Assembly: GCF_018326425.1 (NCBI RefSeq)
Contig: NZ_AP024601.1
Location: 2,530,001 to 2,594,000, forward strand
Source: Polycladomyces abyssicola
Lineage (GTDB): Bacteria; Bacillota; Bacilli; Thermoactinomycetales; JIR-001
Direction: 5' to 3'
DNA length: 64,000 nt
The position numbers and the translations under genes were made by a program. Positions 14,076-61,863 of the stretch are shown here, piece after piece; position 1 is the stretch's first letter, and the number at the start of each line of letters is the position of its first letter. The notes under the pieces were generated by a model. It ran no database searches. It had not been told where the DNA came from and saw only the letters and a list, made by a program, of their open reading frames with translations.

Positions 14076-14207
14076 TCCTTATCTCTCAGCACCCGAAGGT
14101 ACTGCAGGAATTGGCACCTTATGCCCGTACCCTGCCTACAACGCAGGGGCCGAACATGGTTGCCGGGCTTCATCGGGCCAGTCCCTCCGCCTCTCTCGAT
14201 AACGAGT
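14076..14207 (-). promoter_or_regulatory. SAM-I (S-box) riboswitch upstream of hom
   Basis: Minus-strand landmarks are GTTATCGAGAGAGGCGGAGG, GACTGGCCCGATGAAGCCCG, GCAACC, GGTGCCAATTCC and GAGATAAGG closing P1. An extended P3 region (CCCTGCGTTGTAGGCAGGG) lies between. It senses SAM and represses hom by transcription termination. Confidence 0.95.
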
Positions 14208-18684: not shown

Positions 18685-18924
18685 GTTATGCCTCCTTTCA
18701 AAGCCTCCGAGGTTAGCTGACGGGTTCGGGAAAGGAGTTAATCCCGGCCGCCGAAATGGCGGCTTCACCCCAACAATGATTGCATCCCCCGTACCCCGCG
18801 CCGAACACCGACACGGAGATTCGGCCTGTCTGATACACGTTGACCATTATAAGTTGGATATGGAAACCTTTCAAGCGAAAATGATTAGAATGTAAGGTAT
18901 GTATTTCCTTGGAAATTACACAAC

Positions 18925-18971: not shown

Positions 18972-19589
18972 TTATCCGCGCGCCGCTTGGTACCGTTTGG
19001 CGACTTCGTCCCAGTTTACCACGTTCCAGAACGCTTTGATGTATTCCGGACGCTTGTTTTGATATTTGAGATAGTAGGCGTGCTCCCACACGTCCAAGCC
19101 CAAAATCGGCGTGTCGCCATCCATCAGCGGGCTGTCTTGGTTCGGTGTGCTCGTCACGGCCAAGGAACCGTCTTTTTTCACGACCAGCCAAGCCCAACCG
19201 CTACCGAAACGGGTGGTTGCCGCTTTGGTGAATTCTTCTTTGAATCGGTCGAAGCTGCCGAAAGCTTGGTTGATCGCGTTAGCCAGCTCCCCGCTCGGTT
19301 CACCGCCACCATTCGGACTCATGATTTGCCAGAACAGGCTGTGGTTCGCATGACCGCCTCCGTTGTTGCGCACAGCGGTACGAATGCTTTCCGGTACTTG
19401 GTCAATGTTGCGCAACAAGTCTTCAATGGATTTTTCCGCCAAGGCGGTGTGACCTTCCAACGCCGCATTCAAGTTGTTGACATATGTGGCGTGATGCCGG
19501 CCATGGTGAATTTCCATCGTTTGCGCATCGATGTACGGCTCCAACGCGTCATGGGCATACGGCAATGCAGGCAGTTCGTGCTTGGCCAT
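18972..19589 (-). CDS. sodA: Superoxide dismutase (Mn/Fe family)
   Basis: A 205-residue cytosolic Fe/Mn SOD. Metal ligands are in [18 protein letters not shown] (His28), [10 protein letters not shown] (second His), and [20 protein letters not shown] (Asp and His). [20 protein letters not shown] and [10 protein letters not shown] are standard. The Gly in the SPNGGGEP segment and the close match to Bacillus SodA favour Mn. It dismutates superoxide. TTGGAGGGTG precedes the ATG. Monocistronic. Confidence 0.97.
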
Positions 19590-19887: not shown

Positions 19888-21036
19888 TTACCGTCCGGTT
19901 CCGCTGATAACGCGAGACAATTCTGTCACATCGCGCACAATATAATCGGCGCCCAACTCCTCAAACTTGGCTCGCGCGGCCTCTCCGGTCAATCCCGTCA
20001 ACGTGGCTGCAAACTTGCAACCCATTTTTCGGGCTGCCAACAAATCGGCAATCGAATCCCCCACGATCAACACTTCTTCGCCTTTGGACAAAGGCAAATC
20101 GACGGTGAGCACCTCTGCATCCGCTTTGCTCCGACCGAAATATCCTTTTAAATATGTGTACGGTTGCGGTTTACCGAGCGGGGCATGTTCCGGGTGCGCC
20201 TGTTCAGCCTGAATCACATCATCTGCGGTGACGATCCGTTCCGGGTCAAACGCATCATACAATCCGAGGGCGGTAAGCGGCACTTCCGTCTCAATCAGCG
20301 GACGGCCGGTTCCCAATCCCAACACGATACCCTCTCTCCGTAACCCGTCCAGCACTTGTCTAATCTTCCGGGGATCGGCCAGCGGAATCTCCTGGTGCAA
20401 AAATCCGTTTTTGCCCGGTGTGGCCGGTGCCTTGTCTTCCACCTGCCGGTATCGGTCGTCACCCAGATACCATTCCTGGAACACATGACGCCCCAGCTCC
20501 CACAACGCGCTTTTGGGCGAGAACGCCTCGGTTTCCATACCCAACCACGCTTTCGCCAACGTATTGAAATACGCGATCAATTCCTGTTTGGTGACATTGG
20601 ATTCGGCCAATGCCGGGATGAACGCGTCAAACTGCGGCTCATACATGATGCCCGCTTCACGCAACCGTCCGCCCAACTGGCGCAACACATCGGCTGTGAC
20701 GGGGCCGCTCATCGCTTCCGCCACCCACTCCGGCCGCTCGGCTTGAATTTGTTTCAGCAAGCGGAGCCACTGCAGGGAAAACGTCATCTGTACCATATCC
20801 CAGTTGGAGTTGATCCCCCGCGTTTTGATCCAATCCAGCACCCGGTCGCTGTCAAACACCAACTGGCGCAGTTGACGGATTTTTTCCTCGGATGGTTGTG
20901 TGGTAAACACATCTCCCCGCAATCCCAAATAACGGGGATTGTACAGCAGCTCCCACACGGAGAGTGCGGAAGCGTCAAAGCATCGGTCCTCGCTTAAAAA
21001 TACCCCATCCACGTCAAACAAGATCATCCGGTACAA
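19888..21036 (-). CDS. HAD-superfamily hydrolase
   Basis: A 382-residue protein whose N-terminus LFDVDGVFLSEDRCFD gives the HAD motif I DxDG. Motif II/III region has LGLGTGRPLIETEVPL, and motif IV is EEVLIVGDSIADLLAARKMG. A long helical insertion (residues ~60-200) between motif I and the rest is the cap. It should be a phosphatase or phosphotransferase with unknown substrate. The start is a TTG at 21036, 8 nt after AGGAGG. Adjacent on the plus side is an IS200/605-like scar. Confidence 0.8.
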   Translation of the reverse strand: MYRMILFDVDGVFLSEDRCFDASALSVWELLYNPRYLGLRGDVFTTQPSEEKIRQLRQLVFDSDRVLDWIKTRGINSNWDMVQMTFSLQWLRLLKQIQAERPEWVAEAMSGPVTADVLRQLGGRLREAGIMYEPQFDAFIPALAESNVTKQELIAYFNTLAKAWLGMETEAFSPKSALWELGRHVFQEWYLGDDRYRQVEDKAPATPGKNGFLHQEIPLADPRKIRQVLDGLRREGIVLGLGTGRPLIETEVPLTALGLYDAFDPERIVTADDVIQAEQAHPEHAPLGKPQPYTYLKGYFGRSKADAEVLTVDLPLSKGEEVLIVGDSIADLLAARKMGCKFAATLTGLTGEAARAKFEELGADYIVRDVTELSRVISGTGR

Positions 21037-21130
21037 CGACTCTTCCTCCTCTTTTTTACTTACTTCCTTTTACTTTACCAGAGGATCGCATCAAAGCCCA
21101 ACTGTTCATTGTATGAATTCAGTTAACAAA

Positions 21131-21173
21131 GAAAACCTTCCGCATCGGTTCATGATGAACCGAAACGGAAGGT
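21131..21173 (-). terminator. Long hairpin abutting an IS605-type right end
   Basis: ACCTTCCG-TT-TCGGTTCATCATGAACCGA-TG-CGGAAGGT read on the minus strand is nearly perfectly self-complementary and is followed by TTTTCTTTG. It resembles a terminator. The IS right-end motif GTGACTTGCC starts 3 bp away at 21176. Confidence 0.6.
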
Positions 21174-21175
21174 TG

Positions 21176-21285
21176 GTGACTTGCCTATACGGCTGAAGCA
21201 CCACAGGTACTCCCTTTGATCCCGTGGGCTTCTCGCTTCATCTGGTATGGAAATCCATATCCATCCACGGTGGCTTCATCTCATT
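21176..21285 (-). mobile_element. Solitary IS200/IS605-type right end with omegaRNA-like scaffold, no tnpB
   Basis: Plus-strand GTGACTTGCC..ACGGC (21176-21193) and CGTGGGCTTCTCGCTTCATC (about 21225) followed by TGG..TGG.AA.CCA.ATCCATCC match the segment just 3' of the intact tnpB at 60531-60615. Between the two blocks the remnant has a longer, different apical sequence. No tnpB C-terminus is present to its right. It is therefore a scar or a stand-alone omegaRNA-type unit. Confidence 0.7.
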
Positions 21286-21289
21286 CATA

Positions 21290-21655
21290 CCCCAAATACC
21301 ATTTCATCCTTTTCTCAATTGCTGTTGAAATGGAACCCGTTCCGCCAAATAGGTAAACAGTATTCAACGGACCGATCTGCGACCTCACTTCACACAGGTG
21401 AGCTTCCACATAGGAGTGCAACCTGTCGGATGGAGTGAGGAACAGCGGCGTACCGGACATTGCGGCCAGCGGGGCACCGGACGTGGAGTGTCAATCTAGC
21501 CACCAGTTACCTTGCAAGCCTTTACCAATATCCTGGTATGGTGGATGAGGATGGAGTTGCCGTTGCGGTTGGGTTCTCTATCTTTACTCTGATCTTGTCT
21601 ACGATCAGTTTTCTTTTCTACAGAAAGTCAAAACCTATATGGGGAAAATGATTTC
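21290..21655 (+). pseudogene. Unassigned stretch ending in a membrane-protein C-terminus remnant
   Basis: From about 21500 the plus-strand frame closing at 21651 reads LATSYLASLYQYPGMVDEDG, then a hydrophobic helix, then FYRKSKPIWGK and a stop. It looks like the last transmembrane helix and cytoplasmic tail of a permease whose body is missing. 21290-21500 shows short hairpins but no coding signal I recognise. Confidence 0.35.
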
Positions 21656-22186
21656 ATTCCTTGGTGCGGTTACCTTGTTGGGGTACCGCCAGCAATTTAC
21701 TGTACTGCGGGCATGGCACTGGTTTGATCGTGTCAAAGCCATTGCCGAAGCGAAGCGACTTCTCAAAGAAAGCGGCTGTTTGATTGTGATGGATTCGGGA
21801 TTTCACCCTAAAAAACCGCATCCCCTGTACTTGAAAACGCTGGAAATCGCACAAAAATACAGGAATGGAGCCGTCAAACCAGCAGGTTCCAAAGCGGAGG
21901 CGACCTCACGTTTGCTAGGTTTTCCTAGAAATTGGTTTGACGAATGGGAAGCGGCCGGTTTTGAATGGACCGCCGGTTGGCAATGGGAGTATGTTGTTCC
22001 GTTTTCCCACGAGTATTGGTGTGGGCGGATCCGGACATTTCATGGTACAGCCGGTTTTCGAATGAGATCAGGAATGTATTTGACAGGGAAATGCGATCGT
22101 TGTTGGAAGAAGCATTTCCAAATGAACCGGTTGAAGTGCCTCACTTATGTTCAGTTTTAATACTGAAAAACGAGCATGATGCATGA
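21656..22186 (+). pseudogene. Class I SAM-dependent methyltransferase remnant (N-truncated, frameshifted)
   Basis: From about 21700 the frame reads RAWHWFDRVKAIAEAKRLLK followed by ESGCLIVMDSGFHP, the post-motif region of a class I methyltransferase. It continues to EWTAGWQWEYVVPFSHEYW and then shifts frame near 22020-22035. The continuation in the next frame (SWYSRFSNEIRNVFDREMRS, then PVEVPHLCSVLILKNEH) runs to the stop at 22186. The SAM-binding N-terminal half is absent. Not functional. Confidence 0.7.
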
Positions 22187-53464: not shown

Positions 53465-53960
53465 GGAGCTTTAGTGCCAATTCGAACAAAAAACACGAGT
53501 ACGCAACGGTCTACCTTACACCATCATGAATCGCTTCATATCCAGCCATGATCTTTCGACCATGACCAAACATTTCACAACCCATGATGATGGTTCGTTC
53601 GATCGCGCAGGATCTCTTCATAACCCCATACAACCAAACGGCTGTATGGAATCATTTCGGAACCCTGCACGATCTTCGCTCGACGCCGTACGATCGGTTG
53701 GGACCCCGCTGCAATCAGGTTGATACCCGACTGCAACGGAGCCTTTCCCAACCGTACGGCATCTTCCCTCCGACTGCATACAAGCCAATGGCATGACCTG
53801 TATGCAATCTTTGGTCGATCCATCTGTACCCCCATTCATGAGAGCACAGATGGATCTGAGCTCAACCGTTGCGTACCCGCATCTTTATCATGACTCCGTG
53901 ATGAACCTGTGATCGCAGGAAATTACAGGGGATTTTTGGGACACATACCGAACTTTTTTC
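53465..53960. other. Gene-free spacer with low-quality frames
   Basis: Three short frames in both directions are present, none with a ribosome site. One minus-strand frame (53575-53835) reads PLQSGINLIAAGSQPIVRRR and MIPYSRLVVWGYEEILRD, which looks protein-like but broken; possibly a decayed enzyme fragment. Confidence 0.35.
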
Positions 53961-54026
53961 GTGACTTGCCCCACACGGCGACCAAAGGGAGTTTCTCTGG
54001 TGCTTAGGCCGTGTGGAGAAAGTCAC
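53961..54026. repeat. Inverted repeat made of an IS605-type right-end motif and the symporter 3' end
   Basis: GTGACTTGCCCCACACGGC at 53961-53979 matches the right end of the tnpB element (GTGACTTGCTCCACACGGC at 60531) in 18 of 19 bases. It is also an inverted repeat (17 of 19) of GCCGTGTGGAGAAAGTCAC at 54008-54026, inside the symporter's last codons and stop. Confidence 0.8.
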
Positions 54027-60022: not shown

Positions 60023-60530
60023 TTACATACTGATATTTGAGTCAGAAGGATGGAATCTGTTCTCATTGATTTCTTCGAGGGATCGTCCCGTGGTTCGCGG
60101 CCTGAGCAAACCGATATCAAGCATAATAAGTCCCATCGCAATGGCAACGACCGTAAACATGACCGTGGAACCGTATTGTTTTAAAATCGGAAGCAACAGG
60201 AATGGCATCAACCCTCTCATGAAGCGGCTGAAACTGTAGGCGATCCCGGTAGCTGTTGCGCGGACAGAGGTTGGAAAAATCTCGGCCTGATAAATATGAA
60301 AGGCGTTGGAAAAGACATTACTGACCAGTGTGTACAAAACTACCAAACAAAATGATGAGCGTTGGATTCTCCGTCACCCCAAATGAAATGCCAAACACAG
60401 CCATCAGAAAAGCGGAAATAACAATCAGCCATTTGCGGTCAATCCGTTCCACCAACGGCAGTGATAACAATGAACCAATCGGATACCCCAAAAATGTGAA
60501 AGCCGTGTATTCCAGTGAATGAAGCACGGA
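60023..60530 (-). pseudogene. MFS transporter C-terminal half, frameshifted and interrupted by an IS
   Basis: Two minus-strand frames make one MFS half: SVLHSLEYTAFTFLGYPIGS and LVERIDRKWLIVISAFLMAV in the first, then, after a frameshift near 60335-60345, LVSNVFSNAFHIYQAEIFPT and RATATGIAYSFSRFMRGLMP in the second. ERIDRKW and the AEIFPTSVRATATG motif are standard in MFS sugar or aromatic-acid permeases. The N-terminal half is missing: the reading is cut at 60531 by the tnpB element and only traces (61864-61905, VKGIY in frame) appear beyond it. Confidence 0.8.
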
Positions 60531-60539
60531 GTGACTTGC

Positions 60540-60618
60540 TCCACACGGCTTAATCCGTGGGCTTCTCGCTTCATCTGGCGTGGCAACCCACATCCATCCA
60601 CGAAGGCTTCGTCCAAGC
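60540..60618 (-). ncRNA. OmegaRNA-like 3' region of tnpB
   Basis: Immediately 3' of the tnpB stop; contains GAAGCGAGAAGCCCACGG, a hairpin ending CCGTGTGG and then the right-end border GCAAGTCAC. By homology with IS200/IS605 TnpB systems the transcript would carry an approximately 16-20-nt guide copied from the flanking DNA just beyond 60531. Boundary positions are approximate. Confidence 0.6.
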
Positions 60619-61737
60619 CTAGAAAAAGTTAAGTTCTAATTTCCCGTATCTTGGTTCAGGATCGTATCCCATCGCTCGATACAGGATATTCCTTGCAGCA
60701 TTGACATCTCTGTCTGCTACATATCCGCATGAGCAACGATGGGTACGATCTTTTAAGGTCTTCTTTACGATCCGACCGCACTCCGAGCAAACTTGCGACG
60801 TGCTGCGAGGATCCACTTCCATCACTTGCTTACCGGCCCACTCTGCCTTGTAAGCCGTAAATTGAACCAGCATCCTCCAACCTGCGTCTGCAATGCTCTT
60901 GGCAAAATGGTGATTTTTCACCATCCCCCGAATGTTTAAGTCTTCAAAGGCAATCCCATCGTAGTTGTCCACCAAATATCGGCTGATTTTGTGAGCTGCG
61001 TCTTTCCTCTGATTGGCTATGTATTCATGGCATTTGGCCAACATCGTAACTGCTTTTCTCCAACGATGAGAGCCCTTCTTTCTGCGGGAAACCATCCGTT
61101 GGAGCCATTTCAACTTTCTTTCCGACTGACGAAGATACTTAGGGTGGTCGAAATATTCCCCATCAGAGGTCACAGCAAGATGTTTGATCCCCAAATCCAC
61201 TCCTACTTGCTTACCGGTACTTATAGGTGTTGCTTCCACCTCACACGAGAAGCAAGCGTAGTACTTGCCGTTTTTCCGCTTGATGGAGCAAGTCTTGATC
61301 TTTCCTTCGATCCGGCGGTGTAGCTTGATTCTCACATCGCCGATTTTGGAGAGCTTCAGATACCTTCCATCCAGTTTGTAGCCAGCTTGAGGATAGGTGA
61401 AGCTATCGTATCGGTTCTTACCCTGAAAGCGAGGGTATCCCGGCTTTTCCCCACGCTCAATACGACGGAAAAACGCTTGAAATGCTTTGTCCAACCGCTT
61501 GGCTACGTCTTGAAGAACCTGGGAATGGATCTCTTTGAACTCCGGGATCTCCTTCTTGAGTGCCGGGAGTTCTACTGCTTGCTTGTGATAGTTCAACGTG
61601 ATTCCGCGTCTTTTGTAGGCGAACTTTCGTTGTTCAAGCATGGAGTTGTAGAGCCGGCGGCACATGCCCAGTGTCCATTCCATTTTCTCGATTTGCTCTT
61701 TCGTTGGTTTCAGCCTGAATTTATAGGTTCTTATCAA
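60619..61737 (-). CDS. tnpB: TnpB RNA-guided nuclease
   Basis: A 372-residue TnpB. The N-terminal helix-turn-helix-like segment starts IRTYKFRLKPTKEQIEKMEW. The RuvC-like site is complete: Asp in KQVGVDLGIKHLAVTSDGEY, Glu in GIAFEDLNIRGMVKN and Asp in YVADRDVNAARNILYRAMG, with zinc Cys in STSQVCSECGRIVKK and RCSCGY. Length and catalytic residues are intact, so it should be functional. Start: TTG at 61737, 8 nt after AGGAGG; the in-frame GTG at 61746 lies in that ribosome site. Confidence 0.93.
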   Translation of the reverse strand: MIRTYKFRLKPTKEQIEKMEWTLGMCRRLYNSMLEQRKFAYKRRGITLNYHKQAVELPALKKEIPEFKEIHSQVLQDVAKRLDKAFQAFFRRIERGEKPGYPRFQGKNRYDSFTYPQAGYKLDGRYLKLSKIGDVRIKLHRRIEGKIKTCSIKRKNGKYYACFSCEVEATPISTGKQVGVDLGIKHLAVTSDGEYFDHPKYLRQSERKLKWLQRMVSRRKKGSHRWRKAVTMLAKCHEYIANQRKDAAHKISRYLVDNYDGIAFEDLNIRGMVKNHHFAKSIADAGWRMLVQFTAYKAEWAGKQVMEVDPRSTSQVCSECGRIVKKTLKDRTHRCSCGYVADRDVNAARNILYRAMGYDPEPRYGKLELNFF

Positions 61738-61863
61738 CGTGATCACCTCCTCTTTTTACGGTTCCGCTTCATTAACTGATTCTTCTGTAAAAAAACCCGT
61801 CTCATGCCGTAAAAATTCTGTTAAAGATTGTTCTCTTATTTGTATCATATTTCTAATATTTTT

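Follow-up and report, generated by a model that had tools for sequence, protein, structure and literature searches.

Does a transposon right end that has no nuclease gene beside it specify a guide RNA for a TnpB protein encoded elsewhere in the genome, or is it only a scar? The question is raised by a block that a sequence-only reading had placed at 21,176 to 21,285 of the window and described as the right end of an IS605-type element without tnpB, abutting a strong hairpin and perhaps transcribed as a stand-alone ωRNA. The window is the whole stretch analysed here, 64,000 nucleotides from Polycladomyces abyssicola. Its genome (G000; one contig, 3.2 Mb) was compared with those of two congeners (G001 and G002); RE and LE stand for the right and left ends of an element. 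The 21.18-kb unit is most probably an RE scar, one of dozens, and its better-preserved relatives are palindrome-associated transposable elements (PATEs) with complete ωRNA-like scaffolds. The features of the locus are these:

21134 to 21174, minus strand: strong hairpin followed by a T-rich tail; a host feature, present in both congeners (own script).
21160 to 21175, minus strand: would-be guide of 16 nt, placed by its position after the RE end; 5' arm of the host hairpin.
21176 to 21268, minus strand: RE remnant, the 3' ~93 nt of the ωRNA/RE block (BLAST, alignment, scaffold count).
21269 to 21277, minus strand: junction zone GAAGCCACC, readable as element (many copies have GAAGCCATC) or as host (G001 has GAAAGCCACCC).
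21278 to 21482, minus strand: what is left of the 3' end of a host gene, which stops at 21281-21283 (congener comparison); a CWB2 (PF04122) gene in the congeners.

A BLAST search of the window's own genome with positions 21,100 to 21,640 found 23 places at E<=0.001, including the 21.18-kb unit itself, with a best match at 6.5e-28 and the RE at 60.5 kb at 4.8e-13. The blocks GTGACTTGC, CCGTGGGCTTCTCGCTTCATCTGG, ATCCATCCACG and GGCTTC align between the 21.18-kb and 60.5-kb loci, as had been proposed, and the unit is homologous to the IS200/IS605-type right end that follows an OrfB/TnpB gene. A tblastn search with the window TnpB (E<=1e-3) detected no tnpB sequence beside the unit, and its description as an RE of the tnpB element's family without a nuclease gene holds. 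The absence of tnpB is not peculiar to this unit. By the same test tnpB sequence adjoins only four of the 23 units (L015, which is the 60.5-kb copy, L003, L009 and L014), the match at L010 being due only to the overlap of its stretch with L014. The other 19 have none; L020, counted among them, has a PF07282 fragment ~0.7 kb away, and L006 retains a few tens of bases resembling the tnpB 3' end. The proposed extent of the unit holds from 21,176 to 21,268, or to 21,277 if the ambiguous junction zone is taken as element sequence, but not for 21,278-21,285, which reads as the end of the neighbouring host gene.

The scaffold was read against the ωRNA of ISDra2, in which, according to the available text of PMC10097598, the loop of stem 1 pairs with positions -5 to -3, stem 2 has 4 bp, stem 3 is long and a stem 4 is present. 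The RE block at 60.6 kb, which begins at the tnpB stop codon, fits this plan (architecture assigned by hand), and the two features of that locus are:

60531 to 60619, minus strand: RE downstream of tnpB whose ωRNA-like scaffold is complete, from stem 1 and the pseudoknot to stems 2-4, with a single bad pair (stem 4).
60619 to 61746, minus strand: tnpB, 375 aa, with the RuvC motifs GVDLGIK, FEDL and DRDVNAA.

In this block stem 1 is GGCUU/AAGCC, its loop GAC pairs with GUC at -5 to -3, and stem 2 is UCGU/GCGA. Within the family, stem 4 carries a UUUA loop in many copies of a short class, and a long class has an extra inner hairpin. The remnant at 21.18 kb, which ends in GCAAGTCAC, holds most of stem 2, stems 3 and 4, and the long-class inner hairpin. 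Measured by the ISDra2 plan, its stem 1 has three of five pairs broken, stem 2 one of four, stem 3 none of eight and stem 4 three of eight. One pair of stem 3 is changed on both sides (TGTGG/CCACG to TATGG/CCATA), all pairs of the inner hairpin are intact, and the three pseudoknot pairs are still possible (GAT with GTC), GAT lying in a host-like part of the unit. The ISDra2-type combination of stem 1 and a pseudoknot to -5 to -3 is thus lost, and the unit does not pass even a loose scaffold rule, which tolerates no more than one bad pair per stem (stems 1-4) and demands a complete pseudoknot. The letters before GAAGCC, GAATGAGAT, stand in place of the 5' arm of stem 1 and the pseudoknot strand; because they match the unit-free host gene end of G002 (GAATAAGAT; a short match, 8 of 9 letters, at a place where G001 differs), both places are most likely host DNA.

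The unit folds better than shuffled sequence (z -2.7, 0 of 200 shuffles), which reflects the hairpins still present and not TnpB binding. It also scores 115.8 bits, among the better units, with R1, a covariance model built from 22 units of which it is one. Upstream of the block, only ~33 nt are shared with other units, all inside the block, and no LE motif occurs within 330 nt, even at three errors, so that the unit does not have the two ends of a complete PATE. The scan of 20,950-21,650 found no promoter-like site. The search against known ωRNA families that the sequence-only reading had recommended gave no ωRNA match over the Rfam gathering score. The only Rfam matches in the window are two SAM riboswitches and one c-di-AMP riboswitch, at 1195-1319, 14076-14205 and 18687-18836 (-).

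The congeners show what the site looks like when it is free of the unit. In G002 and G001 the end of the CWB2 gene (PF04122) is followed by ~80-90 nt of other sequence, the hairpin and a HAD-family gene, and R1 finds no unit at that place, even at E<=10. Compared with the 21.18-kb locus, the gene side is 95% identical in G002 (98 nt) and 90% in G001 (88 nt), the hairpin side 95% (38 nt) and 79% (42 nt), respectively; the unit occupies the place of the ~80-90-nt intervening sequence. Within that sequence a terminator is called in G002 and none in G001; by eye, the G001 sequence shows a 7-bp stem, GCCACCC/GGGTGGC, together with a longer loop and a T-run. The hairpin that the unit was said to abut is indeed there, but it belongs to the host and lies outside the element. 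Our script, which allows G-T pairs and one mismatch, gives it 18 pairs; a stricter terminator scan of 20,950-21,650 does not list it. Since the hairpin is present in both congeners, the would-be guide lies in a host hairpin, as its 5' arm. The 16 nt of this guide have no other exact match in the G000 genome; a candidate second target with two mismatches (window 19204-19219) was discarded, a reversed control pattern giving five matches against this one. The region 21282-21640 is degraded. After the CWB2 gene remnant comes a short frame (21639-22160) that matches nothing in Pfam or NCBIfam, and sequences that are neighbours here are separated by ~7.7 kb in G001 and by ~2.9 kb in G002.

The 21.18-kb unit is therefore very probably a right end truncated at its 5' side, left by an IS200/IS605-family (IS1341-like) element or by a short non-coding derivative of one, and the evidence favours the "only a scar" option of the earlier reading. 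The observations behind this are the homology, the lack of an adjoining tnpB and of a detectable LE, the host-like 5' letters, the absence from the congeners and the broken stems; what we infer from them is the course of events and that the unit has no function. A complete element would have inserted between the gene end and the host hairpin, and a later deletion would have taken away the LE, the 5' part of the scaffold and the gene's terminator region, so that the 3' end of the gene now joins the RE. The unit would now have no guide role, and at most be carried by transcripts that read through to the host hairpin. Several facts count against this reading: stem 3 is perfect and includes a two-sided change, the inner hairpin is sound, the pseudoknot pairs are possible, the fold and the R1 score are good (the latter for a training-set member), and the host match of the 5' letters is short and confined to one congener.

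An unlikely alternative is that the unit consists of the fused ends of a terminal-only PATE of ~110 bp, itself mobile, that inserted after a TAT-like site. Such elements are described for Haloquadratum in the accessible part of PMC3119063, L023 in G000 resembles by eye an LE-RE fusion of this kind (TTATAAAGAGCGAAAACGTGG), and the 21.18-kb copy is preceded by ...GGGGTAT. Nevertheless, its 5' letters GAATGAGAT are closer to the G002 gene end than to the LE consensus AAAGAGCGAGC, and ~80-90 nt of host sequence are gone here, whereas L008, described below, inserted cleanly. A working ωRNA, made by read-through and bound by the TnpB from 60.6 kb, which would cut the unit-free allele and so keep the unit from being lost, is less likely still, and we judge it very improbable. 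The genome does hold an intact TnpB gene with RuvC motifs, and the RE end GCAAGTCAC, stem 3 with its two-sided change, the inner hairpin and the possible pseudoknot pairs would all suit such an RNA. Stems 1 and 4 are broken, however, the pseudoknot strand is host-like, the guide would be one arm of a strong hairpin, and a promoter-like site is missing from the scanned region, so the proposal of a working stand-alone ωRNA is not supported for this copy. Filed as an ωRNA the copy fails on stem 1, and filed as a PATE it fails on the left end. It is hardly credible that the host has taken over the RE hairpins, in place of its own terminator, as a terminator or leader for the downstream HAD-family gene: the structure is stable and sits where G002 has its terminator, but a second host hairpin with a T-rich tail persists, the upstream gene is a remnant, and no T-run directly follows the unit.

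At E<=0.01, R1 finds 39 matches in G000, 38 in G002 and 118 in G001, which has about three times as many RE-like units as either of the others; across the order, a search with stricter filters gives matches at E<=1e-6 in 12 of 42 genomes. Of these matches 30 of 39 (G000), 33 of 38 (G002) and 40 of 118 (G001) were fetched and studied, and the counts given below for LE motifs, terminators, shared places and scaffolds refer to these 103 units. Alignment A3 leaves out L021. In one unit set the source loci L010, L013 and L021 were omitted; unit L021 is not counted there, and units L010 and L013 still are, through the overlapping loci L014 and L012.

Many copies are non-coding elements of ~250-300 nt, composed of LE, linker and RE and located after TTAT or TTTAT, which we classify from their sequence as PATE-type derivatives of an IS605-family element. 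Eight tnpB-less units have a further ~180-227 nt upstream in common, starting with AAAGAGCGAGCGGGAAAACCC. The LE motif TAAAGAGCGAGCG, with at most one error, lies within 330 nt upstream of 30 of the 103 units and in none of 206 control stretches; 21 of the 30 read TTAT and 13 read TTTAT before AAAGAGCG, where the final T belongs to the motif searched for. This insertion-site motif is seen for the family only, the LE and insertion point of the 21.18-kb unit being gone. Near-complete elements of 247-297 nt number 25 of 103 (7 in G000, 6 in G002, 12 in G001). The 1395-nt tnpB element of G002 shares its LE (first ~90 nt) and RE (last 92 nt) with short elements, L008 among them, whose linker differs from its interior, and the tnpB locus of G001 likewise has the LE of the short elements; the length of the G001 element is left out of the comparison, its RE end having been misplaced in the automatic assignment. 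At the empty site of L008 in G001 only a few bases separate the flanks, and there is no target duplication. The window holds a further, decayed member:

53945 to 54026, plus strand: degenerate RE-like unit with two RE tips facing (GTGACTTGCCCCACACGGC ... GCCGTGTGGAGAAAGTCAC), a near-palindrome.

Seven places carry units shared between species, in 11 pairs that are 73-92% identical, with 400-nt 3' flanks that are 91-97% identical in what is a rough comparison, the flanks including coding DNA; four further pairs, with a local 3' match and no match of the upstream host flank, were left out of this count. Two units are found at the same place in all three species (L004/L111/L174 and L007/L121/L173) and therefore probably predate the species split. 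In 18 of 103 units, for example L021, L023, L139 and L142, the RE end is followed within 90 nt by a terminator-like hairpin. No preference is claimed from this, since the control (22 of 718 stretches) includes coding DNA.

The loose scaffold rule was passed by 34 of 102 aligned units (12/29 in G000, 8/33 in G002, 14/40 in G001). Nine of the twelve in G000 have no tnpB of their own (L002, L004, L008, L010, L011, L012, L016, L018 and L019; the L010 scaffold was read within L014). All pseudoknot pairs are kept in 72 of 102 units, and stem 1 has at most one bad pair in 72 of 102. The scaffold is also the most conserved segment of the near-complete PATEs: mean pairwise identity among all 25 is 0.86 for stems 1-3, 0.86 for stem 4 with the pseudoknot, 0.76 for the body and 0.82 for the LE, and among the seven of G000 it is 0.97, 0.95, 0.86 and 0.90, respectively. 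This pattern would agree with selection during spread, and recombination with tnpB copies would give the same. Under the ISDra2 plan, 87.1% of cells are paired in the 102 units; shuffles give 86.5%, and 1 of 500 reaches the observed value. Pairs changed on both sides number 19, versus 14.0 in shuffles (14 of 500). This small excess would at most be a weak sign of selection on pairing after insertion and is not claimed as such. The R1 structure does better in the same test (10 pairs versus 4.4; 0 of 500) on an alignment that was fitted to R1, and it contains a helix competing with stems 2 and 4 of the ISDra2 plan. An RNAalifold structure from 22 units (14 pairs) lacked stems 1 and 4 and was set aside for counting in favour of the ISDra2 plan. 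A promoter-like site, in the best copies TTGCAA-17-TGGTACAAT within the linker, occurs in nine of the 25 near-complete elements (6 of 7 in G000), once with only 7 of 12 matches; the other 16 have none, so the site is not family-wide as scanned. L010 has TTGCAA-17-TACAAT preceded by TG, one such site found versus 0.3 expected in shuffles.

Each of the three genomes encodes one unbroken TnpB of the family, that of G000 being 83% identical to the others. The window protein has the domains PF01385, PF07282 and PF12323, scores above the NCBIfam guided_TnpB cut-off, and matches the solved chains 8h1j and 8bf8, presumably ISDra2 TnpB, at E 4e-63; the RuvC motifs are found in the G001 and G002 copies too. 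The dN/dS ratio is ~0.10-0.12 for G000 against G001 or G002, and 0.17 between G001 and G002. The window TnpB shares 41% and 34% identity with the remaining full-length frames of G000, and related proteins occur in Marinithermofilum abyssi (up to 86%) and in Thermoflavimicrobium, Hazenella, Polycladospora and Paenibacillus species. For the Y1 transposase, G000 has one 40-position fragment, G001 three partial matches, and G002 19 matches, four of them near full length without a stop. The 60.5-kb locus had been called an intact tnpB element. The gene is intact, but the element has no recognisable left end: homology to the G002 tnpB element begins only at ~61762, and no good LE motif occurs in the 1500 nt upstream of tnpB. 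A partial transporter frame (60023-60346; PF00083) adjoins the element (60531-61762, minus strand), which suggests a deletion.

The stand-alone guide idea fits other G000 copies better than it fits the 21.18-kb unit. A possible, if doubtful, extension is that the ~250-300-nt PATEs of this genus are mobile guide cassettes, each with an LE, a linker bearing a promoter-like site and a full ωRNA, served in trans by the one TnpB of each genome; within G000 this may apply to the nine better-preserved copies without tnpB. The PATEs would then have stayed functional while spreading, and TnpB acting in trans would cut unit-free alleles at many sites. The G000 tnpB copy would have been fixed in place by the loss of its left end, and the 21.18-kb copy would be a dead member of this network. 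Alone, that copy is of little importance. Its family makes it testable whether non-coding PATEs, described in 2011 (PMC3119063, in the part available), act as trans guide-RNA genes for TnpB, and three congeneric genomes with one unbroken TnpB each and 39, 38 and 118 RE-like units form a natural test set. The family also gives a caution, that an ωRNA-like block need not be a guide RNA: no more than 34 of 102 aligned units pass even the loose scaffold test.

PATEs are known from Haloquadratum walsbyi and Halanaerobium (PMC3119063, PMC7290912, both in their accessible text). Like the family described here, they are short and non-coding, with IS605-type ends, near-terminal palindromes, no target duplication and much decay, and in Haloquadratum they too are present in many copies. 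In a PATE-like sequence of Halanaerobium, an LE hairpin is joined to the last 58 nt of tnpB and a whole RE, in 271 nt (same sources); the present family differs from the described PATEs in its common linker, which is absent from the G002 tnpB element, and the 21.18-kb copy, without an LE, is only a fragment of such an element. The available parts of both accounts do not treat the ends as guide-RNA genes, and within a mostly non-subscription literature, partly in extract, no treatment of PATEs as TnpB guide genes was found in print. The ISDra2 ωRNA, as far as PMC10097598 is accessible, resembles the family scaffold in stem 1 with its pseudoknot, in stems 2-4, in the UUUA loop of many short-class copies and in the guide that follows the RE. 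It differs in length (116 nt, versus 89 or ~112 nt here) and in that the RE here ends in GTCAC. The 21.18-kb copy departs further from it, having no sound stem 1. Finally, Altae-Tran et al. are said to have reported, in 2021, stand-alone ωRNA loci that go with IscB. IscB is of another nuclease family than the TnpB considered here; the likeness lies in guide-RNA-like loci that have no adjoining nuclease gene, with the nuclease encoded elsewhere in the same genome.
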